From: Corynebacterium kalinowskii
GTDB taxonomy: Bacteria; Actinomycetota; Actinomycetes; Mycobacteriales; Mycobacteriaceae
NCBI RefSeq assembly: GCF_009734385.1
Contig: NZ_CP046452.1
Location: 2,232,001-2,296,000 of the forward strand
Length of the DNA: 64,000 bases
Reading direction: 5' to 3'
Below, in pieces: positions 35,072 through 63,986 of this stretch. Each line of letters begins with the position of its first letter. Within the stretch, counting starts at the first letter, position 1. The notes beneath the pieces were generated by a model, which worked only from the letters and a program-made list of their open reading frames with translations, made no database searches and had not been told where the DNA came from. A program made the position numbers and the translations under genes.

Positions 35072-35118
35072 CGAATTCTCCTTAAGCATGGTGTGGTGTT
35101 GGATGGGATTTCGCTTGT

Positions 35119-35994
35119 TCATTGTTTATTCCTCCGAAGCATCTTTCTTATCCAGAGGACCAGCAAGAGCAAGACAATTGCAGATCCAATAACGATCGCC
35201 CACATCCACCATTGCCAGTGGAAGCCGCTTTCTTCAAAGAACTTCTCGTCCGACGGATCCATCGGTACGCGTTCAGCATGCACGAGCAACCGGTGGCTGT
35301 TGATGCCGTATGGCGTGCACGTGATGAGGGTGATGAGGTCCTGGCCGTCGACACGCTTGAGGCTCTCGACCTCGGTCGGCAGCACGGTGTCGATGCGGTA
35401 CACCTTGTACTTCATTTTCTGGCCGGCGGACTGGATGTAAATGGCGTCGCCGACTACGGCCTTGGCAAGATTGTCGAAGAGCGTGGCGTTCTGGAGGCCG
35501 GTGTGGCCAGTCATGACGGCATGCTTGCCGACGCCTCCCACTGGAAGGTCGGTCCCATAGAGGTGGCCCACACCCTTTTGCAGCACTTCATGGCTGGTGC
35601 CGTGGTAAATCGGCAGGTTCACCTGCGCGGATGGAATGACTACGCGCCCCATCGCGTCGTAGGAGTCCAGTTGTTTCTTGTATTCCTGGAATCCGGCAGA
35701 GCGTTCATCTTGGGTGCCGGACCAGGGGTCGGTGACGGCGGACTCACCGCGGTGGTCGTTGTAGGAGATGGCATCTTCCAGCTCCTTATTAATGACCTCT
35801 GCCGGTACGGTCTGCTCGTACTGCGAGTACGCCTCAGCAACCTTCGTCTGCCGAATGTTATTCCACTGGGTGGCCACGACTGGGTAGAGCAGCACGCACA
35901 GCCCAGCGAGCACGAGAAGGACAGGCACCAGCACGCTGGACAGTTTGCGCTGCGCCTGTGGCTCCTTCTCTCTTACCACGGTGTGCATCCCCAT
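35119..35994 (-). CDS. srtC: Class C (pilin-polymerising) sortase, second copy
   Basis: 291 residues. Membrane segments near 18-40 and 262-282. Catalytic His164 (TGHTG), Cys226 (TCTPYG) and Arg235 (NSHRLLV). The lid motif DPW at 89-91, which plugs the active site in pilin sortases, marks class C. Cross-links pilins through LPxTG-Lys isopeptide bonds. AGGGAAG precedes the ATG; 9 bases after the spaB-like stop. Its stop overlaps an ATG of the tip-pilin frame. Confidence 0.95.
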   Translation of the reverse strand: MGMHTVVREKEPQAQRKLSSVLVPVLLVLAGLCVLLYPVVATQWNNIRQTKVAEAYSQYEQTVPAEVINKELEDAISYNDHRGESAVTDPWSGTQDERSAGFQEYKKQLDSYDAMGRVVIPSAQVNLPIYHGTSHEVLQKGVGHLYGTDLPVGGVGKHAVMTGHTGLQNATLFDNLAKAVVGDAIYIQSAGQKMKYKVYRIDTVLPTEVESLKRVDGQDLITLITCTPYGINSHRLLVHAERVPMDPSDEKFFEESGFHWQWWMWAIVIGSAIVLLLLVLWIRKMLRRNKQ

Positions 35995-36003
35995 CGTTCT
36001 TCC

Positions 36004-36750
36004 CTACTCTGCATTCTTCCTGCGTCGCACCAGCATGATGCCGAGCGCCATCAAAGCGACGGCTGCACCGACAACACCGATGACGGCCGCGCCGGTGGAT
36101 GCCAATCCTTTACGAATTCCCAACACCCGATCCTCACGCATCGGTGGAGTTGGATCGTCACGCACGCCCTGCACCGAATCGGTCGGACGTGGCGTTGGGT
36201 CCGGGTTGTCCCCCGGCACGTAAGGCGGGTACTCCGGCTTGGTCGGGGTGGTGGTCGGCGCGACCGGCTTGAACTTGGCGTTGATCGTCGGCTCACAGTT
36301 CCAGCGATCGGTGCCGCCGGTGGGCAGCGTGATCACGAACGGAGCTGGCGTTTGGTGCTTGCCATCATTCGGAATCGTCGCGGTTACCAAGTAGGCGCCA
36401 GATGGAAGGCCACTGAAGTAGGCCTTTCCCGAGGCGTCGCTGGTGGCGTACCACTGGCCGTCCTTCGGAGCAGCGCTTGCCTTATCGACGTCCATTCCCT
36501 TCACCGCATCCCAGCCAGCCGTCGTGGTGAGGTCGATGCCGGCCAACTTTTCTAGCGTGAATACAGTGCCTTCGACTTCGTCGTCCCATTTGACCTTGTT
36601 GACGACCATGGTGACGTTGATGCCAGCGCAGGAATCAGATTGTGTGATGTCAAGGCCGTCGATAGGCCCGGTAACCGGATTGGCGGCAGCAGGTGCGATG
36701 CTGAGCGCTGCAATCGTCACAGCGGTAGCCAAGGCGAAGCGCTTATTCAT
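36004..36750 (-). CDS. Minor/basal pilin (SpaB/SpaE-like)
   Basis: 248 residues from ATG 36750, overlapping the end of the upstream sortase by 8 bases. Signal peptide MNKRFALATAVTIAALSIAPAAA. One SpaA-like beta domain (VVNKVKWDDEVEGTVFTLEKL, ASGKAYFSGLPSGAYLVTATIP), a Pro-rich stalk (TTTPTKPEYPPYVPGDNP), and C-terminal LASTG, membrane segment and RRRK. LASTG departs from LPxTG at position 2. SpaB-type pilins end polymerisation and link the fibre to the wall; size and operon place support that role. Confidence 0.88.
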   Translation of the reverse strand: MNKRFALATAVTIAALSIAPAAANPVTGPIDGLDITQSDSCAGINVTMVVNKVKWDDEVEGTVFTLEKLAGIDLTTTAGWDAVKGMDVDKASAAPKDGQWYATSDASGKAYFSGLPSGAYLVTATIPNDGKHQTPAPFVITLPTGGTDRWNCEPTINAKFKPVAPTTTPTKPEYPPYVPGDNPDPTPRPTDSVQGVRDDPTPPMREDRVLGIRKGLASTGAAVIGVVGAAVALMALGIMLVRRRKNAE

Positions 36751-37675
36751 GATCATCACTTTCCGATTCGTACTTGTCAATCAAGTCCATGGCGGGAACC
36801 CGAGGTTCGGCTTCCTTGAGCTTCTTTAGCTGGCGACGCATCCACACGGCCAGGGCGATCGCCACTGCGAGTGCACCGATAAGCAGCGCCCACATCCACC
36901 ACTGCCACTGAGCACCCTTCGTCTGGTCGATGGCTTCGTGGTCCTTCGCATCCATCTCAACGCGGTGTCCGCGGACAAGGAGTCGGTGAGAGTTGATGCC
37001 ATATGGCGTACAGGTGACGAGGGTGATGTAGTCCTTGCCATCGACTGGACGCAAGTCATCGGTTTCGTTAGGGAGCACGACCTTGATCTGGTCGACTTGG
37101 TACTTCAGTTTCTCACCGGAGACCTGGACGTAGATGGCGTCGCCTTCCTTGACATCCTTGAGGTTGTCAAAAAGAGTGGCGTTTGGAAGGCCGGTGTGTC
37201 CGGTGAGCACCGAGTGCGAGCCTTCGCCACCCACCGGAAGATCAGAGCCAAACAGGTGGCCGACGCCTTTTTGCAGGGTGTCATGGTCAGTACCGTGGTA
37301 CAGCGGGAGGTTGATTTGGCCCGTCGGGACAATCAAACGACCCATGGCCTCGTTCTGGTGCAGTTGTCCCAGGTAGGCCTGGTAGTCATTGTTTTGCTTG
37401 GAGATCTGCGCCAGCCAAGGGTCCAGGATCGGACCTGTGTTGCGGGTGTCGTTGTACTGGCGCGCACTCTCCAGCGCGGTATTGAGTTGTTCGGGATCAG
37501 CTTGCTTTTCAAACTTCGCGTATTCATTCGCGACGTTGATCTGCCTGATGTTGTTCCACTGAGTGGCAACAACCGGATACACCAGCACCAAGACTCCGAG
37601 GAGAACCAGGATCACCGGAATCAGGACCGACTTCAGGTCCCTCTGCGACTGTGGGGCTTTCGTTTCTACCGTCAT
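36743..37675 (-). CDS. srtC: Class C (pilin-polymerising) sortase, first copy
   Basis: 310 residues. Catalytic His160 (TGHTG), Cys222 (TCTPYG) and Arg231; lid DPW at 85-87. N- and C-terminal membrane segments (about 17-38, 258-280). Close paralogue of the other sortase (VYPVVATQWNNIRQ and TPYGINSHRLLV shared). Lies between major and minor pilin genes, as SrtB in the C. diphtheriae SpaD-type cluster (recalled). Preceded by a perfect hairpin. Confidence 0.95.
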   Translation of the reverse strand: MTVETKAPQSQRDLKSVLIPVILVLLGVLVLVYPVVATQWNNIRQINVANEYAKFEKQADPEQLNTALESARQYNDTRNTGPILDPWLAQISKQNNDYQAYLGQLHQNEAMGRLIVPTGQINLPLYHGTDHDTLQKGVGHLFGSDLPVGGEGSHSVLTGHTGLPNATLFDNLKDVKEGDAIYVQVSGEKLKYQVDQIKVVLPNETDDLRPVDGKDYITLVTCTPYGINSHRLLVRGHRVEMDAKDHEAIDQTKGAQWQWWMWALLIGALAVAIALAVWMRRQLKKLKEAEPRVPAMDLIDKYESESDDHE

Positions 37676-37713
37676 GGCGTATCACTCTTGCTGATCTTTA
37701 GGCTTAACTGCCG

Positions 37714-37742
37714 GTGAGGCGACCTGCTAGAGGTCGCCTCAC
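37714..37742 (-). promoter_or_regulatory. Perfect intra-operon hairpin between major pilin and sortase
   Basis: GTGAGGCGACCT and AGGTCGCCTCAC form a 12-bp perfect stem with a 5-base loop. There is no strong T run on either side, so it looks like a partial terminator or an RNA-processing/stability element that keeps pilin mRNA in excess over sortase mRNA. Confidence 0.65.
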
Positions 37743-37763
37743 TTTGGCGAGAAGGCTAGGTAA

Positions 37764-39497
37764 TTAGGCCTTCTTGGAGTTGCGGCGGGCGAACCAAGCG
37801 CCAGCGCCGACGAGAGCTGCACCGATCGCAGCCAGAACACCGATACCAGCACCACCGGTGAGTGGGAGCTGAGGGGTGGTGTCATCAAGGTTGATGACCT
37901 CACCGTCATTCGCGCCAACCTTCACGGAAGCCAGTTTGTAAACCGGAACGGTGTAGGACTTCGTCTCAACCGTTGGAGGATTTTCAACCACCGTGCCGTC
38001 AGTGTTCTTGGTGAAGGAACGGGTGACGATGTCGCGAGTCACATTTTGAGTCTCACCAGAAGCGAGCAGCTGGAAGTCGATTGGCTCAGCCAGCAATTCC
38101 TTACCCTTAGGAGCCTTGGTCTCCACAAGGCAGTAGCGGGTGCGATCATCCTCGGCAACCGGCCCATTGTTCGCAAAGTCGTTTACGTGCAAACCGGTGA
38201 TGGAAACCTTGCCATCCTGTCCGGAAACGAAAACATCTCCACCAGCTTCCGCGCCGTTCAGGTCAATTGCCTTAGCAGTCTTGACGTCGAGTGCGGAGCA
38301 GTCCTTTGCGCCCGGCGCGGATTCGAAGACCTTAAATTCTGCACCTTCGAGGCCCTTTCGGTTGCCATCGACCTTCAGGAACTCAACGCCACTGGAGTAG
38401 GTGAACACAGGAGGGGCGGTGTAGGACTCAGTGCTTGGATCTGGGTTACCTGGGGTGCCACCCTCAAAGTCCATGTCGTTGGTTGGGTTGGATGGTTCCC
38501 ACTCGCGGGCCTCGTTAGGCACAACCTCGGCGTTAGTGGTCTTGACAGCTTCAACGTGAACAACGACAGTGTTCTGGTTGTTGAGCTTCTTTAGGCCTTC
38601 AGCGGTGAACTTGACAACGAAGTTGCCAGTAGCGTCAACCTTGGTCAGGGTGTAGTCAACATCCTTGGTGACCGCCTCATCGTCAACAGTAACCGAGATT
38701 ATGGCGTTCTTCACGTCAAGGTTCTTGGCATCCAGGGTATCTTCGATCCAGTAGTAGGAAAGCTTCTTGCCATCTTCTACCTGACGAACCTTGGTCGTAA
38801 TGTCGTACTTGTAAGTACCGGAAGTGTGCTGGCCCTTATCCTCAACTTCCTTGACTGGCTGAGTCTTGGAGTAGTTCTTAGGGTAAGCGTGAACGTTGTA
38901 GTTCCAGCTTTCGCCCTGAGTTGCGGTCTCGACTTCCTTGGTACGAGGGTCATCAGCAGTGGTATTGGTCATTGGCAGGAAGGCGATGAAGTCCGCTGCT
39001 GGGGTGTAGCCAGGAGCTGGGGTAGTTTCCTTGACCAGATATGCACCGATCTTCAAGGTGACAGGATCCGTGTCGCCGCTAGCGAGGGTGGTCATAGTGG
39101 TCGAAGAATCTGCGAGGCGAGCCTTCTTGTCGGTGATCCACTTCTGAACGGTCGCTGGAGTCAATCCCTGAGCGGCTGCCAGCCACTCATTAGTGCCAGC
39201 CTTGATGACGTTGCCATTAGCATCCAGGAGCTCAATTTCGGTCGCAGTGAACACCACGTCCTTGAGCGGTGTGCCATCCGGAGCAGGATCCTGGATATTG
39301 CCGGTTGGGGTACCAGTCGAGGTTGGGTTGCCGTACTTGTGGATGGTGAGGGTACCCTCGGCCCGGTCAATGGTCGAGACGACTACTGGGGTAGATGGAG
39401 TGACATCCTGCGCAAGCGCCATTGGGGACATACCCAGGGTCAGGCCGACGATTGCGGCAGCGGAGACGCTGCGCAAAGCGATTGAATTCTTAGTCAT
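37764..39497 (-). CDS. Major shaft pilin (SpaA/SpaD-type)
   Basis: 577 residues. Signal peptide about 1-29. Pilin motif WNYNVHAYPKN at 198-208 with linking Lys207; E-box YCLVETKAPKG with Glu459 (isopeptide formation); Cys400 and Cys456 could form the C-terminal disulfide seen in SpaA; sorting signal LPLTG at 544-548, membrane segment and RRNSKKA. This is the polymerising subunit. AAGGA precedes the ATG and a long leader lies upstream. First gene of the pilus operon. Confidence 0.93.
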   Translation of the reverse strand: MTKNSIALRSVSAAAIVGLTLGMSPMALAQDVTPSTPVVVSTIDRAEGTLTIHKYGNPTSTGTPTGNIQDPAPDGTPLKDVVFTATEIELLDANGNVIKAGTNEWLAAAQGLTPATVQKWITDKKARLADSSTTMTTLASGDTDPVTLKIGAYLVKETTPAPGYTPAADFIAFLPMTNTTADDPRTKEVETATQGESWNYNVHAYPKNYSKTQPVKEVEDKGQHTSGTYKYDITTKVRQVEDGKKLSYYWIEDTLDAKNLDVKNAIISVTVDDEAVTKDVDYTLTKVDATGNFVVKFTAEGLKKLNNQNTVVVHVEAVKTTNAEVVPNEAREWEPSNPTNDMDFEGGTPGNPDPSTESYTAPPVFTYSSGVEFLKVDGNRKGLEGAEFKVFESAPGAKDCSALDVKTAKAIDLNGAEAGGDVFVSGQDGKVSITGLHVNDFANNGPVAEDDRTRYCLVETKAPKGKELLAEPIDFQLLASGETQNVTRDIVTRSFTKNTDGTVVENPPTVETKSYTVPVYKLASVKVGANDGEVINLDDTTPQLPLTGGAGIGVLAAIGAALVGAGAWFARRNSKKA

Positions 39498-49671: not shown

Positions 49672-50919
49672 ATGAAACTTCCCGCTCCACTCGCGCGTAT
49701 GCGCACTGGTTTCGCAGTGCTCGCTGCTAACGCTGCTACCAAGGCATCTCAGGCCACCGGCCGGGGCGCTGGCGGCATGATCGGAGGCCTGATCGCGAAT
49801 GCTATTGACCCGACCATCATGGAGCAGCTGGGGGCATCCCGCCCGGTGGCGCTGGTGACCGGAACGAACGGTAAGTCCACCACGACTCGCATGCTGGTCG
49901 GCGCGCTTCGCACTAAGTACAAGGTCGCCACTAATGATGGCGGCGACAACATGGATGCCGGCATTATCGCGGCTCTTATGAAGGGCAAGTCTGCCACCCA
50001 CATTGCACTCGAGTGCGATGAGCTGCACGTTCCTGCGGTCGCCGATCGACTGCGACCTAGTGTGCTGGTTCTACTAAACCTCACTCGCGATCAGTTGGAC
50101 CGCGTTGGCGAGATCAACAAGATCGAACGAGTGCTGCGCGGGGCCGTCGAGAAGCACCCCGAGATGACGGTGATCGCGAACTGCGACGACGTCATCGTAA
50201 CCTCCGTAGCCTTTGACGCCCCGGACGTCGTATGGGTGTCCGCGGGTGCCGGATGGACGGGTGACTCCGTCAGCTGCCCACGCACCGGCGGCCACATTAT
50301 TCGAGACGGCGAGGACTGGTACGCGGCGAAGCCATTGCAGGATGGCCGCGAGTTCCGCCGCCCAACCCCGACCTGGTCGATCACCCCAGAGGGCATTGAC
50401 CACGAGGGGCTGCACGAGCTGGACCTGAAACTCCCCGGACGCGCAAACCGCGGCAACGCCACCCAAGCGATCGCTGCGGCAGTGGCCATGGAAGTACCCC
50501 TGTCCGATGCGCTGCACGCGACCGAGCAGGTGGACAACGTGGCCGGCCGCTACTCCACCATCCGCTTTGAGCAGTGGGATGTGCACATGATCCTGGCCAA
50601 GAACCCAGCCGGCTGGCAAGAAGCGCTGTCCATGGTGGATCGCACCGCCGACGGGCTCGTCATAGCCGTCAACGGCCAGGTAGCCGACGGTGAGGATCTC
50701 TCTTGGCTGTGGGACGTGTCCTTTGAAGACTGCAAGGATTCCTTCGTCCACGCCGCCGGCGAGCGCGGCACCGACCTAGCCGTGCGTCTGACGTATGCGT
50801 CTATTCCTCATGATCTGCACCAAGATCCCGTGGACGCCATCCGCGCCTGTGCGCCTGGACGAGTGGAAGTCCTGGCCAATTACACCGCATTCCGCGATCT
50901 GAAGAAGGCATTGTCATGA
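49672..50919 (+). CDS. murT: MurT, lipid II isoglutaminyl synthase ligase subunit
   Basis: 415 residues. Mur-ligase P-loop GTNGKST at 64-70, central ligase domain, and C-terminal DUF1727 domain (about 310-415; GWQEALSMVDRT, DVSFEDCKDSFVHAAGERGTDLAVRL). With GatD it amidates the D-Glu of lipid II. The Cys4 ribbon described in staphylococcal MurT is largely absent: only one Cys (VSCPRTGG) remains in the region. Overlaps gatD by 4 bases. Confidence 0.93.
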   Translation: MKLPAPLARMRTGFAVLAANAATKASQATGRGAGGMIGGLIANAIDPTIMEQLGASRPVALVTGTNGKSTTTRMLVGALRTKYKVATNDGGDNMDAGIIAALMKGKSATHIALECDELHVPAVADRLRPSVLVLLNLTRDQLDRVGEINKIERVLRGAVEKHPEMTVIANCDDVIVTSVAFDAPDVVWVSAGAGWTGDSVSCPRTGGHIIRDGEDWYAAKPLQDGREFRRPTPTWSITPEGIDHEGLHELDLKLPGRANRGNATQAIAAAVAMEVPLSDALHATEQVDNVAGRYSTIRFEQWDVHMILAKNPAGWQEALSMVDRTADGLVIAVNGQVADGEDLSWLWDVSFEDCKDSFVHAAGERGTDLAVRLTYASIPHDLHQDPVDAIRACAPGRVEVLANYTAFRDLKKALS

Positions 50920-51605
50920 TCACTATCGGCCTCATTCTTCCCGACGTCCTGGGCACCTACGGCGATGACGGCAATGCTCTGGTCCTGCGCCAGCGCGCCC
51001 GCATGCGTGGCCTCGACGCCGAGATCGTCCGCATTGGCCTTGGCGAACCCGTGCCGTCCACTTTTGATGTGTACTGCCTCGGCGGCGGCGAAGACACCGC
51101 CCAGATCCTCGCGGCTGAACACCTGATTGCCGACGGTGGCCTCCAGCGCGCGGCTTCCGCTGGCCGCCCAATCCTCGCCATCTGTGCCGGTCTTCAGGTG
51201 CTTGGCGAATCCTTCCAAGCTTCCGGACGCACTGTGCAGGGCGTCGGCCTTATCGACGCCACCACTGCCCCACTTACTCAGCGCGCCATCGGCGAAGTGG
51301 TCACCACTCCTCGGATTGAGGGATTGACGCAGCCTCTGACCGGTTTTGAGAACCATATGGGCGCCACCGTGCTAGGCGACGATGCGTCTCCACTGGGCTC
51401 AGTCACGAGGGGTGTTGGCAACTCCTCCGATGGTACTTCGGAGGGCGCTGTCCAGGGCTCCGTCATTGCGACCTACATGCACGGCCCTGTGCTGGCACGT
51501 AACCCAGAGCTCGCAGACCTGCTGCTCACGCGGGCGACCGGGCTTGCTTTGGAACCGTTGGAGTTGCCTGAGGTGGAGCAGCTGCGGAAGGAACGGTTGA
51601 GCTAG
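50916..51605 (+). CDS. gatD: GatD, glutamine amidotransferase subunit of lipid II amidation
   Basis: 229 residues. Class I amidotransferase with nucleophile Cys90 (LAICAGLQ) and His189 (YMHGP). Releases ammonia from glutamine and passes it to MurT. ATGA overlap with murT. Peptidoglycan D-Glu amidation supports transpeptidation by PBPs such as the PonA2-type enzyme in this window. Confidence 0.94.
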   Translation: MITIGLILPDVLGTYGDDGNALVLRQRARMRGLDAEIVRIGLGEPVPSTFDVYCLGGGEDTAQILAAEHLIADGGLQRAASAGRPILAICAGLQVLGESFQASGRTVQGVGLIDATTAPLTQRAIGEVVTTPRIEGLTQPLTGFENHMGATVLGDDASPLGSVTRGVGNSSDGTSEGAVQGSVIATYMHGPVLARNPELADLLLTRATGLALEPLELPEVEQLRKERLS

Positions 51606-52387: not shown

Positions 52388-55300
52388 TTAGTTTTCGTCG
52401 GCCTTACGACGACGAATCAGTGCGAATCCGAGCAGCGCAATTAGCGCGGCGGCAATGGAGATGCCGATAACGTTTGCGCCAGTCTTAGCTAGAACTCCGC
52501 CCTTAGGCTGCACACCCTTTTGTGGACCCTTGTTCATGCTGTCAACACCGTCATTTGGCTTAGTCGTTGGTGCTGGCTGTGGAACAGAGGTCGCAGGAGC
52601 AGGTGGCACTGGATCAGAGGAGCCAGAGGATCCGGAAGAACCTGGTACCAGCGGAATCAGCGGGATGAGTGGAATCAGCGGTACCCATGGCGGGATACCC
52701 GGCTTGCTGTGCGCGTTTGCAGGGTTGTCATCCTTGACCGGCGGGATTGGGTGCCCCTTTTCATCCACTGCCGTCGAGCCATCCGGATTAGCCGGAGTAC
52801 CTTCGACCGTACCGACGTTCGTGTGCTGCTCGCCTTCCTTTGGAGCTGGATAGGTGGCGGTACACGTCATGGAGGCACCTGGCTCGAGTTCCGTCTTCGG
52901 GCAGGAGATCTTGTCTGCCGCGATGACGTTGTCGGTCACCTTAATGTCCTTCAGCTTTGCCAGTCCAGTGTTTGTTACCTGGAAGTGCACTGTCATGTCA
53001 GAGCCTGGTTCCACTGCAACACCTGGAGCGGTGTCGGCGTCGTCGCCGTTGATCAGCTTCACGATGCGCACTGCAGGAACCACAGCGTTTGCCGGATCGT
53101 GGTCTACCACTGCCGGAGGCTCCTCTGGGTCTGGGCCCGGAGTCGTGGTCTCCGTAGGGCCAGGCTCGCCTGGCACCGTGGTTCCAGGAACCGTGGTGCC
53201 TGGGACCGTGGTGCCTGGCTCGGTGGTTTCCGGAACCGTCGTACCAGGAATGGTGGTGCTTGGAACGGTGGTGGTCGCGTTCGTCGTACCAGGGACGGTG
53301 CTCTCAGGAATGGTGGTACCTGGGATCGTCATTCCTGGAACAGTGGTGCCCGGAACCGTAGTGCCTGGGACCGTGGTGCCCGGGGTAGGGGTTGGCGTCG
53401 GGAAGACGTCGACCTCAGGGGTGCCCTCGACCTTGGCGGTGTTCGTGTGCTGCTCCCCTGCCGCTGGGGCTGGGAAAGTAGCGGTGCAAGTGAAGGACGC
53501 GCCGGCTTCGAGCTTGGCGACGACATTGCCCTGTCCACCAGCACAGACGATGTCGCTGGATACGATCTTGTCGTCGGTGACAGTGACATTCTTCAGAGCG
53601 GTCTTTCCGGTGTTGGTCACCTCGAAGGTGACGCTCATCGGCTCGCCAGGCTTGACGATGACTCCAGGAGCATTGTTGGCATCATCACCGTTGATCTTTT
53701 TGATCACCTGAACACCTGCCGGAGAATCCACGTGAGCGAACTCAGGATCTTCGTCCCGGACCTTGGTTGGCGGATTGTGGCCGTCGCTAGGCGGCGTGCC
53801 CTCGACCCGGCCGAGGTCGTAGTGTCCGACGCCCGGCTTCGGTGCCTTGATCTGAGACGTACAGGTCATCTCCTCGCCCGGAGCAAGCTCCGTCTTAGGA
53901 CAGGTGACCACTGGGTGCTCCACCCCGTCCTGGAGGTACACGGTGTCAGTGACCTGAACATCAGTCAGGTTGACGTCGCCGGTGTTGGTCACCTTGTAGG
54001 TGATCGCCATCATCGAACCTGCCTCGACACGGACGCCTGGCTTGGAGTTGTTGTCCGTGCCATTAATCATCTTGACGATATGAATTGCAGGGTTCGAAGG
54101 CTTCGGCTCCTCCGGTGGGTTGTGAGCATTGCCCGGATCCTCCGGAGACTCGACCGGCTTGTTCGGATCGCCTGGCTCGCCCGGCTTCTCCGGATTCTCC
54201 GGCGTACCGACAGCCTTGGCCACATTCAGGTGGCCGGCAGTCTTACTGGACGGCGCGGCAACCGTGATGGTGACTGTCTTCGCCTCGCCCTTGGCCAGGT
54301 CAAACTTTTCGATCCTAGCGAGTTCAGCGTCGATCGCTGCCTGCACGCCGGCGACGTCATCGCCTGCCTGCACCCTATCGACGACATGGATGTCAAACAC
54401 CTTGGTGTCTCCGGTGTTCTTGATCTCGTAGGTGATCGTCATCGGAGCACCTGGCTTGACCTCGACACCCGGCGCATTGTCAGCGTCGTCACCGTTGATC
54501 AGCTTCTGGATCTCCAGCTTTGGAGTGCCAGGAACTGGTGGTGTCGTTGGAGGAGTCGACTCCGTCGCATGCGCAGGATTCGTCGTCGACACTACAACCG
54601 TCGTACCCGGAACGGTGGACTCACCAACCGTCGTACCCGGAACAGTCGTACCCGGAACCGTTGTCGTCGCGTCCGTGGTACCCGGCACCGTCGACTCAGG
54701 AACCGTCGTACCAGGAATCGTCGACGGTGTCACCGTCACCGTACCCAACGCGGTACCCACATTCACGTGACCAGAAGCCGCATCAGAATCAGCTGCAACC
54801 ACCTTCGCAGTAAACACACCCGACTCACCAGGAGCCAACGTGCCATCCCACGCAGCAGTCGAACCCTCCTTGAGCACCTTCACCGACGGCGCAACAACAT
54901 CCTTAATCTTGTCATCCGTCACCGTCACACCATGTAGGGCTTGTTGACCAGTATTCGTCACCAAAAACTGAACCTCAAGATCAGCACCCGGCTTCACCAC
55001 AGCTGCAGCCTCAGCAGTATCAGCATCCTGCCACACACCGGCCTGATCCTTAATCTGCTTCAACACATCAATAGCAGGAACACCAGCATTCGCAGGGTTC
55101 GTCGTTGACACGGTCGTTCTCGGAACCGTCGTCCCCGGAACCGTGGTACCAGGGACCTCACCACCAACAGAACCGACGTTAGTATGCAGTTCCTTCGCAT
55201 CGGCAGGAGCCGCAAACTCCGCCTTACAAATCACCACACCGCCCGGCATTAGCACGTCAACAACATTGTCGTCATCACACTTAATCTCAGACGCCGCAAT

Positions 55301-58300
55301 CTTGTCATCCGTCACCGTCACATTACGAAGAGCAACCTGACCCGTGTTTACCACACGGAACTCAACCTGCATCATATCGCCGACCTTAACCACCGCAGCA
55401 TCACCGGCAGTATCAGCATCCCGACCATTGATGAACTTCTTGATATCAACACCCGGCTCACCAGGAACACCCGGTACCACCGGCGTCGTCGTCACCGTCG
55501 CAGTAGCAGGATCCGTCGTCGTCAACGTCGTCGCAGGAACCGACGTCCCCGGATCAGTCGTACCCGGCACCGTCGAACCAGGCACCGTCGTCGTCGCATC
55601 CGTCGTACCCGGCACCGTCGACTCAGGAACCGTCGTACCAGGAATCGACGTCGGCGGAACCTCACCAGCAACCGTACCCACATTCACATGCTCAGAACCC
55701 GCAGGAGGAGCCGGGAAGGTCGCCTTACACACCTTCTCCTCACCCACCTTCAGCACACCCAGAACATTGTTCGAGGAACCCTCACACACAATCTCCTCAG
55801 CAGCAACCTTGTCATCCGTCACCGTCACATTCGACAGATCCTTCTGACCAGTATTCTTCACACGGAACTCAACATCCATATCCTGACCAGCAGGAACAGT
55901 AACCGCCGTGACGTTAGCATCATCACCATTGATGTACTTCTTAATCGACACCTCAGGAACCACAGCATTCGCAGGATTCGTCGTCGTCACCGCAGTACCC
56001 GGAACCGTCGAACCAGGCACCGTCGTCGTCGCATCCGTCGTACCCGGCACCGTCGTCCCCGGCGTATCACCAGAAACCGTACCCACATTCACGTGAGGCG
56101 TATCAGCAGCAGGAGCCTTCATCGTCGCCGAACACGTAACCCACGCACCCGGCAACAACACATCAACAACATTGTCGTCATCACACTTAATCTCAGACGC
56201 CGCAATCTTGTCATCCGTCACCGTCACATTCGTCAACGGCACATCACCAGTATTCGTGACCTCAAACGTGACACTCATATCCGAACCAACAGCCACCACA
56301 GCAGCCGCATCCTTCGAATCAGCATCAAAACCATTGATCTTCTTCACGATATTGATACCAGGAACACCCGGCACCACCGGCGTCGTCGTCACCGTCGCAG
56401 TAGCAGGATCCGTCGTCGTCAACGTCGTCGCAGGAACCGACGTCCCCGGATCAGTCGTACCCGGCACCGTCGAACCAGGCACCGTCGTCGTCGCATCCGT
56501 CGTACCCGGCACCGTCGACTCAGGAACCGTCGTACCAGGAATCGACGTCGGCGGAACCTCACCAGCAACCGTACCCACATTCACATGCTCAGAACCCGCA
56601 GGAGGAGCCGGGAAGGTCGCCTTACACACCTTCTCCTCACCCACCTTCAGCACACCCAGAACATTGTTCGAGGAACCCTCACACACAATCTCCTCAGCAG
56701 CAACCTTGTCATCCGTCACCGTCACATTCGACAGATCCTTCTGACCAGTATTCTTCACACGGAACTCAACATCCATATCCTGACCAGCAGGAACAGTAAC
56801 CGCCGTGACGTTAGCATCATCACCATTGATGTACTTCTTAATCGACACCTCAGGAACCACAGCATTCGCAGGATTCGTCGTCGTCACCGCAGTACCCGGA
56901 ACCGTCGAACCAGGCACCGTCGTCGTCGCATCCGTCGTACCCGGCACCGTCGTCCCCGGCGTATCACCAGAAACCGTACCCACATTCACGTGAGGCGTAT
57001 CAGCAGCAGGAGCCTTCATCGTCGCCGAACACGTAACCCACGCACCCGGCAACAACACATCAACAACATTGTCGTCATCACACTTAATCTCAGACGCCGC
57101 AATCTTGTCATCCGTCACCGTCACATTCGTCAACGGCACATCACCAGTATTCGTGACCTCAAACGTGACACTCATATCCGAACCAACAGCCACCACAGCA
57201 GCCGCATCCTTCGAATCAGCATCAAAACCATTGATCTTCTTCACGATATTGATACCAGGAACACCCGGCACCACCGGCGTCGTCGTCACCGTCGCAGTAG
57301 CAGGATCCGTCGTCGTCAACGTCGTCGCAGGAACCGACGTCCCCGGATCAGTCGTACCCGGCACCGTCGAACCAGGCACCGTCGTCGTCGCATCCGTCGT
57401 ACCCGGCACCGTCGACTCAGGAACCGTCGTACCAGGAATCGACGTCGGCGGAACCTCACCAGCAACCGTACCCACATTCACATGCTCAGAACCCGCAGGA
57501 GGAGCCGGGAAGGTCGCCTTACACACCTTCTCCTCACCCACCTTCAGCACACCCAGAACATTGTTCGAGGAACCCTCACACACAATCTCCTCAGCAGCAA
57601 CCTTGTCATCCGTCACCGTCACATTCGACAGATCCTTCTGACCAGTATTCTTCACACGGAACTCAACATCCATATCCTGACCAGCAGGAACAGTAACCGC
57701 CGTGACGTTAGCATCATCACCATTGATGTACTTCTTAATCGACACCTCAGGAACCACAGCATTCGCAGGATTCGTCGTCGTCACCGCAGTACCCGGAACC
57801 GTCGAACCAGGCACCGTCGTCGTCGCATCCGTCGTACCCGGCACCGTCGTCCCCGGCGTATCACCAGAAACCGTACCCACATTCACGTGAGGCGTATCAG
57901 CAGCAGGAGCCTTCATCGTCGCCGAACACGTAACCCACGCACCCGGCAACAACACATCAACAACATTGTCGTCATCACACTTAATCTCAGACGCCGCAAT
58001 CTTGTCATCCGTCACCGTCACATTCGTCAACGGCACATCACCAGTATTCGTGACCTCAAACGTGACACTCATATCCGAACCAACAGCCACCACAGCAGCC
58101 GCATCCTTCGAATCAGCATCAAAACCATTGATCTTCTTCACGATATTGATACCAGGAACACCCGGCACCACCGGCGTCGTCGTCACCGTCGCAGTAGCAG
58201 GATCCGTCGTCGTCAACGTCGTCGCAGGAACCGACGTCCCCGGATCAGTCGTACCCGGCACCGTCGAACCAGGCACCGTCGTCGTCGCATCCGTCGTACC

Positions 58301-61300
58301 CGGCACCGTCGACTCAGGAACCGTCGTACCAGGAATCGACGTCGGCGGAACCTCACCAGCAACCGTACCCACATTCACATGCTCAGAACCCGCAGGAGGA
58401 GCCGGGAAGGTCGCCTTACACACCTTCTCCTCACCCACCTTCAGCACACCCAGAACATTGTTCGAGGAACCCTCACACACAATCTCCTCAGCAGCAACCT
58501 TGTCATCCGTCACCGTCACATTCGACAGATCCTTCTGACCAGTATTCTTCACACGGAACTCAACATCCATATCCTGACCAGCAGGAACAGTAACCGCCGT
58601 GACGTTAGCATCATCACCATTGATGTACTTCTTAATCGACACCTCAGGAACCACAGCATTCGCAGGATTCGTCGTCGTCACCGCAGTACCCGGAACCGTC
58701 GAACCAGGCACCGTCGTCGTCGCATCCGTCGTACCCGGCACCGTCGTCCCCGGCGTATCACCAGAAACCGTACCCACATTCACGTGAGGCGTATCAGCAG
58801 CAGGAGCCTTCATCGTCGCCGAACACGTAACCCACGCACCCGGCAACAACACATCAACAACATTGTCGTCATCACACTTAATCTCAGACGCCGCAATCTT
58901 GTCATCCGTCACCGTCACATTCGTCAACGGCACATCACCAGTATTCGTGACCTCAAACGTGACACTCATATCCGAACCAACAGCCACCACAGCAGCCGCA
59001 TCCTTCGAATCAGCATCAAAACCATTGATCTTCTTCACGATATTGATACCAGGAACACCCGGCACCACCGGCGTCGTCGTCACCGTCGCAGTAGCAGGAT
59101 CCGTCGTCGTCAACGTCGTCGCAGGAACCGACGTCCCCGGATCAGTCGTACCCGGCACCGTCGAACCAGGCACCGTCGTCGTCGCATCCGTCGTACCCGG
59201 CACCGTCGACTCAGGAACCGTCGTACCAGGAATCGACGTCGGCGGAACCTCACCAGCAACCGTACCCACATTCACATGCTCAGAACCCGCAGGAGGAGCC
59301 GGGAAGGTCGCCTTACACACCTTCTCCTCACCCACCTTCAGCACACCCAGAACATTGTTCGAGGAACCCTCACACACAATCTCCTCAGCAGCAACCTTGT
59401 CATCCGTCACCGTCACATTCGACAGATCCTTCTGACCAGTATTCTTCACACGGAACTCAACATCCATATCCTGACCAGCAGGAACAGTAACCGCCGTGAC
59501 GTTAGCATCATCACCATTGATGTACTTCTTAATCGACACCTCAGGAACCACAGCATTCGCAGGATTCGTCGTCGTCACCGCAGTACCCGGAACCGTCGAA
59601 CCAGGCACCGTCGTCGTCGCATCCGTCGTACCCGGCACCGTCGTCCCCGGCGTATCACCAGAAACCGTACCCACATTCACGTGAGGCGTATCAGCAGCAG
59701 GAGCCTTCATCGTCGCCGAACACGTAACCCACGCACCCGGCAACAACACATCAACAACATTGTCGTCATCACACTTAATCTCAGACGCCGCAATCTTGTC
59801 ATCCGTCACCGTCACATTCGTCAACGGCACATCACCAGTATTCGTGACCTCAAACGTGACACTCATATCCGAACCAACAGCCACCACAGCAGCCGCATCC
59901 TTCGAATCAGCATCAAAACCATTGATCTTCTTCACGATATTGATACCAGGAACACCCGGCACCACCGGCGTCGTCGTCACCGTCGCAGTAGCAGGATCCG
60001 TCGTCGTCAACGTCGTCGCAGGAACCGACGTCCCCGGATCAGTCGTACCCGGCACCGTCGAACCAGGCACCGTCGTCGTCGCATCCGTCGTACCCGGCAC
60101 CGTCGACTCAGGAACCGTCGTACCAGGAATCGACGTCGGCGGAACCTCACCAGCAACCGTACCCACATTCACATGCTCAGAACCCGCAGGAGGAGCCGGG
60201 AAGGTCGCCTTACACACCTTCTCCTCACCCACCTTCAGCACACCCAGAACATTGTTCGAGGAACCCTCACACACAATCTCCTCAGCAGCAACCTTGTCAT
60301 CCGTCACCGTCACATTCGACAGATCCTTCTGACCAGTATTCTTCACACGGAACTCAACATCCATATCCTGACCAGCAGGAACAGTAACCGCCGTGACGTT
60401 AGCATCATCACCATTGATGTACTTCTTAATCGACACCTCAGGAACCACAGCATTCGCAGGATTCGTCGTCGTCACCGCAGTACCCGGAACCGTCGAACCA
60501 GGCACCGTCGTCGTCGCATCCGTCGTACCCGGCACCGTCGTCCCCGGCGTATCACCAGAAACCGTACCCACATTCACGTGAGGCGTATCAGCAGCAGGAG
60601 CCTTCATCGTCGCCGAACACGTAACCCACGCACCCGGCAACAACACATCAACAACATTGTCGTCATCACACTTAATCTCAGACGCCGCAATCTTGTCATC
60701 CGTCACCGTCACATTCGTCAACGGCACATCACCAGTATTCGTGACCTCAAACGTGACACTCATATCCGAACCAACAGCCACCACAGCAGCCGCATCCTTC
60801 GAATCAGCATCAAAACCATTGATCTTCTTCACGATATTGATACCAGGAACACCTTGCTGCGTCACCGGCGTACACACATCATTGTTATCCACACCATCAG
60901 AATCACCCGGCAAATCAACAACGTTGTACAGCCCCTTCGACGAATCCGTCGCACCTGCATCAGTCTTACACTCACCGATAGTGGCCCATTCAACCTTGGA
61001 CTGATCCACCGTGTACGTCATCACCACCACATGCGGCTTCTCCGCACCAGCAGCCAAATCATCACCCGGCGTGACCTCAAACTTGCCATCAACCAGCGGC
61101 AACGAGACCAGATTGCCATCAACCGTGATCGACTTAATCACAAAACCAGCAGGAACCGACGGCGTATCCATCACAGCCTTCGACATCGCCTGATCATTAC
61201 CCGTATTCTTCACGATCACCGAGTAATTACGCGTGACCTCAGTAGCATCCTTTTCCAACACCACCGGCAGATCAGAAGACTCCTTCCGAACAGCAAAATC

Positions 61301-63133
61301 AGGCGAAGTAACACACGTCGGATCTTCCCCACCTGGTTTGTTTGGATCGTCCGATAATATGCCGTCTGGGTATGAGACCCAAACCACGTTAGCTTGGTTA
61401 CAGACTTCAGTTTGTCCTGGTGCCATCCTGACTTGGAAAGTGACTGTAGCTGTGTCGCCAGCTGGAATCACACCCTCAAATTCGGTCTGGGTGCCCTTGA
61501 CTGGCCTTCGCTTTGTGTAAGGCATAGATGGACCAGCATCGTCAGACACGGGATCACCATTGAGGGTGGTACTGCCTTCAATATACTCCGCACCATGTGG
61601 CACCTGGTCCTCGAATGTCGCGCCAGAAACCGACAGATTGCCCGTGTTTTTCATCACAATGCTAAACGTAATAGTGTCCCCAACGCTAGCTGATTCTGGA
61701 GTTGCCGTTTTCTCAATAGCTAAATCCGGCTGCGGAAGGGCACACGATGCCATGTCCGCAAAACCATGGCTTTCTGTGAAAGTGAACTCGTTAAGTGGTG
61801 TTGCAACACCGGTATCTTTGTTTACTGAATAGTAATTCGATGATCCTTTTTGATTATCATTCGCAGATGCATATAACGTACCGTTAGAATCGAAGGATAT
61901 TCCGTTATAAAACGAGTACTTTCCTGGGGATCTCATATTACCCACTAGGGTCGCTTCAGGGGCAGAAGGCCTTGCCAACTGGTCTGGGCCAATGGTTAGT
62001 AGCCAAGTATCGCCTGCGCCGGCGGCTGAAACGTCTCCAGCAACCAGAATCCACATTGTGCCCGTGCCGTCAAAAACAATGTCTCCGGAATTTAGGCTAT
62101 CAACATCGGTCGACATTTCAGCTGGCAACTTCGGAGTGCCTTTATTCTCCAAGGCTAAAGTTGCCACATTCGAAGGAAGCTTGGCATTCCCATTTGTATC
62201 AACACTCAGTTTCGTAGCTGGCAACGAACTTACATCCGACAAACGACGAAGAACCCCATCCATACCAAAGGACCACAGCGCGCCATCCGCCGCGATGGAA
62301 AGCCTATTTGTCTGTAGTTGACCTGGACCCGCTTTACCAACTACAAAGAAATCTCCTGTGGTCAGATCCACTTTGATCAAGTAATCAGTAAATACTGTTC
62401 GAAGCGCTGTTTCATAACGCGTTGTAAAATACGCATAGCGCGGATTCTTTGGATCCTGAGCGAGGGCAGAAGAAGCATCACCGATCAAGAATCCAATATT
62501 GTTCTTTATTCGCGGAATATCATATAGAGCTGTCATGGAGTTTGTTACTGGGTCCAAGTAGCCAATTTGGTCCGTGTATCCGTCACGACGACCAATAGCA
62601 GACACATACCACTGCCGGTCACAAGTACCTGCCGAATTACCATTGTTCGCATCGACAGTCACCTGATGAGTGTTTACAGTAGTTTCCGGCAAAAAACGCC
62701 AAGCAGAATCATCCCACCACTCACCAGTGAAGCTAATCGAGACGTCCTGGCTCTGAGTGACGTATGCCTCACAGGAAAAAGTGAATGTATCTCCAGGATA
62801 GATACGAAGGCCGGATACGCCATCAGACGTTCCAGAAGAATTACAAAGCGAGTTTTGCTCTTCGGAGTACCAAACAGCCCTACCGTCTGTACGCGTGTTC
62901 GTAACTTTGTACGTAACAGCAACTTGTCCTCCGCCCGCTGGAACCTGGTTCGGCTCTACGATCGACTCCATACTTAGCGAATTCGTCGCGATTGTCTTCG
63001 TATCAGCCCTCGCCTCCGGCCACACACCTCCCCACGGAACCATGATGCTCGCCAGGAGTAGCGATAGCACTGCAACAATCCCAAGCAGTGCACGCGGTAA
63101 AATCACTCGAACCTTAGACCCGTCCAGAAACAT
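52388..63133 (-). CDS. Giant repetitive sortase-anchored surface protein
   Basis: 3581 residues. Signal peptide about 1-43 (RALLGIVAVLSLLLASIMV...ARA); N-terminal domain about 45-465 with repeated beta-strand phrases (GYLDPVTNSMTALYDIPRI, LIKVDLTTGDFFVVGKAG), propeller-like; a DUF11 module (DLAIEKTATPESASVGDTITFSIV) and a second one. Residues about 761-2555 are six copies of a 299-residue unit made of two Ig-like DUF7507/DUF11 modules (IVKKINGFDADSKDAA and SIKKYINGDDANVTAV) joined by Thr-Pro-Gly linkers (VPGTT repeats, potential O-glycosylation sites). Six diverged modules follow, then Pro-rich stalk, sorting signal LAKTG (3548-3552), membrane segment and RRRK. A wall-anchored fibrous adhesin or stalk is the likely role. 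Monocistronic. Confidence 0.88.
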   Translation of the reverse strand: MFLDGSKVRVILPRALLGIVAVLSLLLASIMVPWGGVWPEARADTKTIATNSLSMESIVEPNQVPAGGGQVAVTYKVTNTRTDGRAVWYSEEQNSLCNSSGTSDGVSGLRIYPGDTFTFSCEAYVTQSQDVSISFTGEWWDDSAWRFLPETTVNTHQVTVDANNGNSAGTCDRQWYVSAIGRRDGYTDQIGYLDPVTNSMTALYDIPRIKNNIGFLIGDASSALAQDPKNPRYAYFTTRYETALRTVFTDYLIKVDLTTGDFFVVGKAGPGQLQTNRLSIAADGALWSFGMDGVLRRLSDVSSLPATKLSVDTNGNAKLPSNVATLALENKGTPKLPAEMSTDVDSLNSGDIVFDGTGTMWILVAGDVSAAGAGDTWLLTIGPDQLARPSAPEATLVGNMRSPGKYSFYNGISFDSNGTLYASANDNQKGSSNYYSVNKDTGVATPLNEFTFTESHGFADMASCALPQPDLAIEKTATPESASVGDTITFSIVMKNTGNLSVSGATFEDQVPHGAEYIEGSTTLNGDPVSDDAGPSMPYTKRRPVKGTQTEFEGVIPAGDTATVTFQVRMAPGQTEVCNQANVVWVSYPDGILSDDPNKPGGEDPTCVTSPDFAVRKESSDLPVVLEKDATEVTRNYSVIVKNTGNDQAMSKAVMDTPSVPAGFVIKSITVDGNLVSLPLVDGKFEVTPGDDLAAGAEKPHVVVMTYTVDQSKVEWATIGECKTDAGATDSSKGLYNVVDLPGDSDGVDNNDVCTPVTQQGVPGINIVKKINGFDADSKDAAAVVAVGSDMSVTFEVTNTGDVPLTNVTVTDDKIAASEIKCDDDNVVDVLLPGAWVTCSATMKAPAADTPHVNVGTVSGDTPGTTVPGTTDATTTVPGSTVPGTAVTTTNPANAVVPEVSIKKYINGDDANVTAVTVPAGQDMDVEFRVKNTGQKDLSNVTVTDDKVAAEEIVCEGSSNNVLGVLKVGEEKVCKATFPAPPAGSEHVNVGTVAGEVPPTSIPGTTVPESTVPGTTDATTTVPGSTVPGTTDPGTSVPATTLTTTDPATATVTTTPVVPGVPGINIVKKINGFDADSKDAAAVVAVGSDMSVTFEVTNTGDVPLTNVTVTDDKIAASEIKCDDDNVVDVLLPGAWVTCSATMKAPAADTPHVNVGTVSGDTPGTTVPGTTDATTTVPGSTVPGTAVTTTNPANAVVPEVSIKKYINGDDANVTAVTVPAGQDMDVEFRVKNTGQKDLSNVTVTDDKVAAEEIVCEGSSNNVLGVLKVGEEKVCKATFPAPPAGSEHVNVGTVAGEVPPTSIPGTTVPESTVPGTTDATTTVPGSTVPGTTDPGTSVPATTLTTTDPATATVTTTPVVPGVPGINIVKKINGFDADSKDAAAVVAVGSDMSVTFEVTNTGDVPLTNVTVTDDKIAASEIKCDDDNVVDVLLPGAWVTCSATMKAPAADTPHVNVGTVSGDTPGTTVPGTTDATTTVPGSTVPGTAVTTTNPANAVVPEVSIKKYINGDDANVTAVTVPAGQDMDVEFRVKNTGQKDLSNVTVTDDKVAAEEIVCEGSSNNVLGVLKVGEEKVCKATFPAPPAGSEHVNVGTVAGEVPPTSIPGTTVPESTVPGTTDATTTVPGSTVPGTTDPGTSVPATTLTTTDPATATVTTTPVVPGVPGINIVKKINGFDADSKDAAAVVAVGSDMSVTFEVTNTGDVPLTNVTVTDDKIAASEIKCDDDNVVDVLLPGAWVTCSATMKAPAADTPHVNVGTVSGDTPGTTVPGTTDATTTVPGSTVPGTAVTTTNPANAVVPEVSIKKYINGDDANVTAVTVPAGQDMDVEFRVKNTGQKDLSNVTVTDDKVAAEEIVCEGSSNNVLGVLKVGEEKVCKATFPAPPAGSEHVNVGTVAGEVPPTSIPGTTVPESTVPGTTDATTTVPGSTVPGTTDPGTSVPATTLTTTDPATATVTTTPVVPGVPGINIVKKINGFDADSKDAAAVVAVGSDMSVTFEVTNTGDVPLTNVTVTDDKIAASEIKCDDDNVVDVLLPGAWVTCSATMKAPAADTPHVNVGTVSGDTPGTTVPGTTDATTTVPGSTVPGTAVTTTNPANAVVPEVSIKKYINGDDANVTAVTVPAGQDMDVEFRVKNTGQKDLSNVTVTDDKVAAEEIVCEGSSNNVLGVLKVGEEKVCKATFPAPPAGSEHVNVGTVAGEVPPTSIPGTTVPESTVPGTTDATTTVPGSTVPGTTDPGTSVPATTLTTTDPATATVTTTPVVPGVPGINIVKKINGFDADSKDAAAVVAVGSDMSVTFEVTNTGDVPLTNVTVTDDKIAASEIKCDDDNVVDVLLPGAWVTCSATMKAPAADTPHVNVGTVSGDTPGTTVPGTTDATTTVPGSTVPGTAVTTTNPANAVVPEVSIKKYINGDDANVTAVTVPAGQDMDVEFRVKNTGQKDLSNVTVTDDKVAAEEIVCEGSSNNVLGVLKVGEEKVCKATFPAPPAGSEHVNVGTVAGEVPPTSIPGTTVPESTVPGTTDATTTVPGSTVPGTTDPGTSVPATTLTTTDPATATVTTTPVVPGVPGEPGVDIKKFINGRDADTAGDAAVVKVGDMMQVEFRVVNTGQVALRNVTVTDDKIAASEIKCDDDNVVDVLMPGGVVICKAEFAAPADAKELHTNVGSVGGEVPGTTVPGTTVPRTTVSTTNPANAGVPAIDVLKQIKDQAGVWQDADTAEAAAVVKPGADLEVQFLVTNTGQQALHGVTVTDDKIKDVVAPSVKVLKEGSTAAWDGTLAPGESGVFTAKVVAADSDAASGHVNVGTALGTVTVTPSTIPGTTVPESTVPGTTDATTTVPGTTVPGTTVGESTVPGTTVVVSTTNPAHATESTPPTTPPVPGTPKLEIQKLINGDDADNAPGVEVKPGAPMTITYEIKNTGDTKVFDIHVVDRVQAGDDVAGVQAAIDAELARIEKFDLAKGEAKTVTITVAAPSSKTAGHLNVAKAVGTPENPEKPGEPGDPNKPVESPEDPGNAHNPPEEPKPSNPAIHIVKMINGTDNNSKPGVRVEAGSMMAITYKVTNTGDVNLTDVQVTDTVYLQDGVEHPVVTCPKTELAPGEEMTCTSQIKAPKPGVGHYDLGRVEGTPPSDGHNPPTKVRDEDPEFAHVDSPAGVQVIKKINGDDANNAPGVIVKPGEPMSVTFEVTNTGKTALKNVTVTDDKIVSSDIVCAGGQGNVVAKLEAGASFTCTATFPAPAAGEQHTNTAKVEGTPEVDVFPTPTPTPGTTVPGTTVPGTTVPGMTIPGTTIPESTVPGTTNATTTVPSTTIPGTTVPETTEPGTTVPGTTVPGTTVPGEPGPTETTTPGPDPEEPPAVVDHDPANAVVPAVRIVKLINGDDADTAPGVAVEPGSDMTVHFQVTNTGLAKLKDIKVTDNVIAADKISCPKTELEPGASMTCTATYPAPKEGEQHTNVGTVEGTPANPDGSTAVDEKGHPIPPVKDDNPANAHSKPGIPPWVPLIPLIPLIPLVPGSSGSSGSSDPVPPAPATSVPQPAPTTKPNDGVDSMNKGPQKGVQPKGGVLAKTGANVIGISIAAALIALLGFALIRRRKADEN
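55472..60853 (-). repeat. Six tandem 897-bp coding repeats
   Basis: Blocks recur with an exact 897-bp period (for example equivalent points at 55908, 56805, 57702, 58599, 59496 and 60393). By eye the copies are identical or nearly so at DNA level; the only difference I noted is at the left edge (ggTacc versus ggCacc at 55474). Each encodes two Ig-like modules. The array keeps frame (897 = 3 x 299), so copy number can change without breaking the protein. Confidence 0.92.
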
Positions 63134-63362: not shown

Positions 63363-63986
63363 CTAAAGCTTCAACCGCCCACTCAACGCCCTCGACAGCG
63401 TCAGCTCATCGACAAACTCCAGGTCACCGCCCAATGGCATGCCGGAAGCAAGGCGTGAGACGGTCAAAGATGGGAAGTCGCGAAGCAAGCGGGCCAAATA
63501 CGAAGCTGTGGCCTCACCCTCAGTATTCGGGTCCGTTGCCAGAATTACCTCAGTAATGTCAGGCGACGACTCACCGGAGTCCGGCAAGACCCCAGCAATG
63601 CGCTGCAGTAGCGGCGTGATGTTCAGATCTCGTGGCCCGATGTTGGCCAACGGATCGAGTGCTCCCCCGAGCACGTGGTAGCGGCCCCGGTATTCGCCGG
63701 TCCGCTCAATAACTTGAATGTCTTTCGGCTCTTCAACAACGCAGATCATCGAAGTATCGCGTCCCGAATCCGCACAGATGCGACACACATCCTCGCGCGA
63801 CACGTTGCAGCAGATTCGGCAAAAGGTTACGCCCTCGCGCACCGCATCCAGCGCTGACTGCAATCGCGAGATGTCCTCGGATTCCACCTGCAACAGGTGA
63901 AAAGCAATGCGCTGCGCGGATTTGGGCCCAACCCCCGGGAGCCGAGAAAGTTCATCGATCAGATCCTGGAGGGGGCCTTCAAACAC
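63363..63986 (-). CDS. recR: Recombination mediator RecR
   Basis: 207 residues, GTG start. Helix-hairpin-helix [20 protein letters not shown], Cys4 zinc finger ([22 protein letters not shown]), Toprim domain ([48 protein letters not shown]), and C-terminal [19 protein letters not shown]. Works with RecF/RecO in loading RecA. Slightly longer than the usual ~200 residues; complete at both ends. Same place after murT-gatD as in M. tuberculosis. Confidence 0.96.

Follow-up and report, generated by a model that had tools for sequence, protein, structure and literature searches.

A giant surface-protein gene and its surroundings

The window, meaning the whole stretch of 64,000 nucleotides that was analysed from Corynebacterium kalinowskii, carries on its minus strand (no strand had been given in the earlier note) the gene of a giant, probably wall-anchored surface protein, read as one open reading frame (Table 1). 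A tandem array of six 897-bp units encodes 1794 of the 3581 residues (50.1%), and the gene aligned to itself with an offset of 897 nt shows no mismatch over 4481 nt. With the unit phased as GVPGINIVKK...TTPVVP, all six copies lie in frame with 299 codons each and are 100% identical as protein. Copies 1-5 are also identical as DNA, and the sole change in copy 6 lies at unit base 894, four bases before the unit end, where GTG becomes GTA with valine in both, giving one difference in five comparisons of 897 bases. These counts bear out the earlier description of six near-identical, in-frame repeats that form half of the protein, and chance is not an issue for a repeat of such length. The genome is a single contig, and a scan of all 2,510,218 bp with the unit returned no match outside the giant gene and two weaker ones (67% and 76%) within the gene itself.

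Two further observations concern the array. Antisense to it runs an open frame of 1889 codons (window 55688-61357, plus strand), which probably arises as a shadow of the repeat and of the codon bias in it. The diverged domain C has 25 residues in common with domain A (window 55250-55324, minus strand), and at 23 of these the codon is also the same. They lie within sequence that has otherwise diverged, a possible trace of partial gene conversion.

Table 1. Features of the giant gene, its flanks, a nearby pilus cluster, and the orthologous locus of the sister species (window positions unless stated otherwise).
Feature	Position	Strand	Basis or remark
Giant surface-protein gene, 3581 aa	52388..63133	-	One ORF of 3581 codons
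N-terminal signal sequence, residues ~1-43, end ...EARA/DT	63005..63133	-	By eye
N-terminal Ig-like domain, residues ~53-162	62648..62977	-	Strands read from AlphaFold model
Predicted beta-propeller head, residues ~165-464	61742..62641	-	AlphaFold model and fold matches
DUF11 (CLIPPER) domain, residues 470-595	61349..61726	-	Over Pfam cut-off
Tandem array, six units of 897 bp, residues 761-2554	55472..60853	-	
Repeat copy 1 (DUF7507 A, Thr/Pro linker, DUF7507 B, Thr/Pro linker)	59957..60853	-	
Repeat copy 2	59060..59956	-	Identical to copy 1
Repeat copy 3	58163..59059	-	Identical to copy 1
Repeat copy 4	57266..58162	-	Identical to copy 1
Repeat copy 5	56369..57265	-	Identical to copy 1
Repeat copy 6	55472..56368	-	One silent change from copy 1
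Six further, diverged DUF7507 domains (C-H), residues 2560-3446	52796..55456	-	
Cell-wall sorting signal LAKTG, hydrophobic stretch and RRRK, residues 3548-3581	52391..52492	-	Sequence
recR, upstream flank	63363..63986	-	
gatD, downstream flank	50916..51605	+	Best match, below curated cut-off
murT, with gatD	49672-50919		
SpaH/EbpB-type major pilin	37764-39497	-	Pilus cluster
Class C sortase	36743-37675	-	Pilus cluster
Second pilus-cluster sortase	Genome match within 35119-35994	-	Sortase match
Orthologue of the giant gene in sister species G098	L172 6599-14302		

The AlphaFold model of the head is a propeller (pLDDT 76, pTM 0.70), supported by fold matches, and the propeller-like N-terminal domain of the earlier note stands as a prediction on this basis; the Kelch-type six-bladed propeller is a candidate for its type. 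DUF7507 was recognized in 18 stretches of the protein (465.7 bits against a Pfam cut-off of 27), and the AlphaFold model of A-linker-B consists of two Ig-like sandwiches (pLDDT 83, pTM 0.53). In the available text of PMC12617251, DUF7507 has the new name CLIPPER_2 and a Lys-Asp-Asn intramolecular isopeptide bond is predicted for it. By pattern and inspection, the three residues of this predicted triad are kept in 17 of the 18 domains; in domain F, Asp replaces Asn, likewise in sister species G098. Two cysteines occur in 16 of the 18 domains. The Thr/Pro linkers might be mannosylated, because one match to the PMT mannosyltransferase family was found.

LAXTG is the signal of class E sortases. 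Its role as such is in keeping with the available part of PMC5148588, and the features of a class E substrate are present here, namely LAKTG, a hydrophobic stretch, a positive tail, and a class E sortase encoded in the genome, the one match over cut-off (254 bits against 160). The wall anchor claimed earlier is upheld at the level of prediction. The window also contains a pilus cluster (30701-39497, minus strand), which, besides the genes in Table 1, encodes a 1473-residue protein with a pilin-like C-terminus (below curated cut-off).

No near-identical protein was found in protein databases, where in part only the candidates sharing most words were scored. Among genome sets with one genome per species, the head (residues 40-620) had matches in five of 242 genus genomes, own genome included, and the only convincing relative among those five was in G095 (30%). 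DUF7507 exceeded the cut-off in 43 of the 242, several of which have an ORF as long or longer among the matches listed (4456 codons in G196, 4416 in G157, and 4411 in G070). The nearest long protein among the candidates scored is P0002 of Luteococcus sp. Sow4_B9, 42% identical over 97% of residues 1-620, and a metagenomic protein of 1616 residues has the same head (43%). A whole-protein scan of genome contigs confirmed no relative, and a plasmid collection gave no match.

Of 373 confirmed gatD relatives in named genomes, the best 80 were used to survey the site. Among these, 67 have recR adjoining gatD in the expected order, with a gap of less than 400 bp in 33 and of 458-6376 bp in 34. The 37 gaps of at least 200 bp (one of which, L030, has masked bases) contained no tblastn match to the giant protein at 1e-5, nor did the other 13 relatives, in which the recR-gatD pair is missing; five of these end within 2.5 kb of gatD and eight show 10 kb with no recR in the expected order. 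The giant gene is therefore an addition at the recR-gatD site, absent from the surveyed relatives as far as their available sequence reaches.

The orthologue in a sister species and the uniformity of the copies

Sister species G098 has an orthologue at the equivalent site, between recR and gatD-murT-dnaQ-leuA, as here, and the flanking genes of the two species are 88% (recR), 77% (gatD), 83% (murT), 57% (dnaQ), and 84% (leuA) identical. The G098 frame has 2567 codons, stop to stop, and its tail is 67% identical to the tail here. Its A+B unit is 1038 bp long and exact over 1073 nt at that lag, or ~2.03 copies compared with six here, and between species the unit is 75.5% identical as protein. 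In a midpoint-rooted domain tree, whose groupings are read irrespective of support values, the two G098 A copies are sister to a single group made up of the six own A copies, and a single group of own B copies adjoins G098 B and X. The tail domains F and G pair across species, and H pairs less cleanly with its counterpart.

As judged from these alignments and the tree, the A+B unit has been homogenised separately in each lineage, since the orthologous units are exact within each genome and are grouped by species. Between species, recR, gatD, murT, and leuA differ at 49-64% of their four-fold sites, and the array has a single silent difference within itself; its copies were therefore made, or equalised, long after the species split. 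Silent differences that would point to old divergence among the copies were looked for, and the GTG to GTA change was the only one. The recent amplification or ongoing homogenisation proposed earlier agrees both with this single difference in six copies and with a G098 unit that is ~25% of residues apart and itself exactly duplicated. The claim of length variation held in part: copy number differs between species, and no near-identical protein of a second strain was found in which variation between strains could be seen.

Silent divergence of the A+B unit between species (0.33) is lower than that of the flanks and tail (0.49-0.65). Recent transfer of the unit between species is not needed to account for this once its near two-letter codon alphabet is allowed for. 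Silent differences in the unit number 52, where codon shuffling gives 64.5 (sd 4.6), and leuA (115 compared with 129.4, sd 6.1) and the tail (155 compared with 168.5, sd 6.5) fall short to a similar degree, which is why transfer need not be invoked.

Identity that is only recent would also follow from a one-time amplification in this strain, after which the copies did not go on exchanging and length had no role. One such burst fits the single silent difference among the six copies as well as continuing exchange does, but at this site G098 too carries exact copies of the orthologous unit, in a version peculiar to it, and exact arrays also occur in several further surface ORFs of Corynebacterium. 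These two facts therefore indicate a recurring process, and a solitary burst is considered unlikely. It is less likely still that the array is an artefact, either with a true copy number other than six or with copies that the assembler rendered identical. Assembly is known to go wrong at tandem repeats (available text of PMC6868369), a region with such a gene is described in the available text of PMC13339910 as missing from a published closed Limosilactobacillus genome, and the copy number of six rests on one assembly; against an artefact are the single-contig genome, the frame that stays intact through all copies, the silent base that tells copy 6 apart, and the comparable exact array in the separate genome of G098. 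Selection on the protein sequence in place of DNA exchange or recent copying fits the identical protein copies but is contradicted by the silent sites, which differ just once within the array and at about half or more of four-fold positions in the four flanking genes between species, so that this explanation is scarcely credible.

The two orthologues also differ in their heads. The G098 head matches DUF6923, unlike the head here, so that different heads appear to have been exchanged on a common stalk and tail. An hhalign comparison did not identify the G098 head as a relative of the own head (probability 0.7%, E 0.075), although the shallow alignment makes this a weak test, and both heads could be propellers nonetheless. 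No literature on DUF6923 was found.

Codon bias of the array

The array has one unexplained feature, a bias toward codons ending in G or T. Of the 203 four-fold codons in the unit, 198 have G or T as their third base (0.975), and two-fold codons lean likewise, with 32 G to 0 A and 46 T to 14 C (isoleucine codons counted). Along the gene, the G/T share is 0.46-0.69 over residues 1-600, 0.91 just before the array, 0.97-0.98 within it, 0.85-0.88 just past it, and 0.41-0.57 in the tail; the bias fades toward both gene ends. In the genome baseline of 320 ORFs from 20 stretches, the mean is 0.468 and the maximum 0.69, and none of the 644 windows of 150 codons from that sample reaches 0.8. The G098 array has a share of 0.95-0.96.

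A comparison across the genus kept 53 long ORFs after L144, which partly duplicates G098, and ORFs of low composition score had been left out. Surface ORFs with at least 30 four-fold sites inside exact repeats numbered 19, and the G/T share was higher inside than outside in 16, a count not corrected for kinship among the arrays, several of which are probably related to one another. The set that raised the idea, in which the own gene, the orthologue in G098, and two ORFs from each of L132 and L151 are counted, contributed 13 of 14, and a later set contributed three of five. The exceptions were L188 (0.12 inside, 0.42 outside), L182 (0.35 and 0.47), and L138 (0.42 and 0.43), and high shares were seen despite few or no exact repeats in L193 (0.84) and in L192 and L143 (both 0.79). 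In L188 (G158), a DUF7507-like unit of 450 bp is repeated exactly ~2.03 times, and C prevails at its four-fold third positions (139 of 180), the reverse of what the others show. Other exact tandem arrays in Corynebacterium surface ORFs include L148 (G130; 255 bp, ~6 copies) and L150 (G106; 267 bp, ~5 copies).

Several causes of the bias were considered and found no support. Amino-acid content does not produce it, as 5000 random recodings with codon usage from 20 genome stretches gave 0.465 (sd 0.035, maximum 0.599) compared with the native 0.975. It is not a property of DUF7507, as 29 long ORFs at DUF7507 loci in 17 genomes outside the genus had shares of 0.39-0.60 outside repeats, with 0.82 in the highest single window. 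Those 29 ORFs contain no long exact array (longest exact run, 143 nt) and are thus no test of arrays outside the genus; among the five ORFs there that have 30 or more repeat sites, four showed a higher share inside, with differences of 0.03-0.19. That the bias keeps the mRNA unstructured is not supported, since the native unit folds at -48.8 kcal/mol per 150 nt, compared with -51.1 (sd 1.9) for 40 random recodings using the usage of 10 window genes and -45.0 (sd 1.4) for 40 shuffles of its own codons, the native order being more structured than the shuffles. Replication strand as the cause is at odds with the tail and residues 301-600, which lie in the same gene and on the same strand and are free of the bias. 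The gene is probably on the leading strand of its own genome, where skew is negative over most of the second half, one exception apart; in G158 and G128, sampled replication skew changes sign between stretches and points neither way.

Judged by title and abstract opening, none of the papers listed deals with codon bias in tandem surface arrays, though work on it may exist. According to the available text of PMC3763553, TGG repeats give the most stable RecA filaments, and the unit contains 22 TGG, 50 GGT, and 46 GTG triplets, compared with 12, 18, and 27 in recoded versions. This excess fits a recombination reading but does not prove it, and a strand-biased mutation process would look alike. 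One speculative possibility, held with little confidence, is that the array DNA is marked by its own recombination, in that homogenisation drives strand-specific change (C to T and A to G on the coding strand) or that G/T-ending codons are kept since stable RecA filaments aid exchange among copies. If so, silent sites would report, or set, the speed of length change in a surface protein. A codon bias tied to homogenisation would also allow silent sites to mark length-variable surface genes in single genomes, with no need of strain panels.

A probable stalk of exchangeable units and its known counterparts

Taken together, the gene quite probably encodes a Periscope-type fibrillar adhesin in which a wall-joined DUF7507 stalk holds the head, the number of A+B units sets the length, and the DNA copies exchange with one another. 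The protein would be exported and then joined to the cell wall via LAKTG, probably by the class E sortase. Most DUF7507 domains of the stalk are probably locked by an internal isopeptide bond and carry a cysteine pair, with Thr/Pro linkers between domains, and the stalk would keep the propeller head, a putative ligand binder, away from the cell. Unequal crossing over or gene conversion among the 299-residue units would keep the copies identical within a genome and let their number change, possibly also between strains, leaving each species with a unit version and a copy number of its own. Such exchange could not change the number of the diverged domains C-H. The sister pair, in which the gene, its place, and the tail are shared, the heads differ, and an orthologous unit is exact within either genome yet distinct between the two, offers a clean natural case for the growth, shrinkage, and uniformity of bacterial surface stalks.

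CmbA of Limosilactobacillus reuteri is likewise a wall-anchored adhesin whose gene has identical tandem repeats, of ~290 bp and present in 11 and 8 copies by strain in the available text of PMC13339910; its unit is shorter, and the likeness is one of description alone. The CLIPPER/CLIPPER_2 (DUF11/DUF7507) fibrillar adhesins, as presented in the available text of PMC12617251, resemble the protein here in domain content, with one DUF11 and 18 DUF7507 domains, and in the Lys-Asp-Asn triad; they differ from it in that the array here is exact at the DNA level and the predicted head is a propeller. Luteococcus P0002 (3011 aa) has the head and DUF11 in common with it, but its 13 DUF7507-like domains all differ from one another in the domain tree.

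The closest class is that of the Periscope Proteins, such as SasG, Rib, and Sgo_0707, for which the available text of PMC8201768 (Whelan et al. 2021) sets repeats of >50 residues with at least 80% identity; the present protein has six of 299 residues at 100%. Shared traits are a wall anchor (here by motif), an N-terminal folded head (here predicted), a stalk whose long tandem repeats are almost identical as DNA, and repeat numbers that differ between orthologues. The class is also marked by repeat domains that build an elongated rod and by repeat numbers that vary among strains; for the protein here, the model of A-linker-B shows two Ig-like domains, and the numbers are six and, in the G098 orthologue, ~2.03. 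Unlike those proteins as described there, the unit comprises two DUF7507 domains and long Thr/Pro linkers over 299 residues, number variation is known between species only, six C-terminal DUF7507 domains are not exact repeats, and the host is Corynebacterium, a genus unmentioned in the main text of that source. The protein probably works like a Periscope Protein and probably is one.
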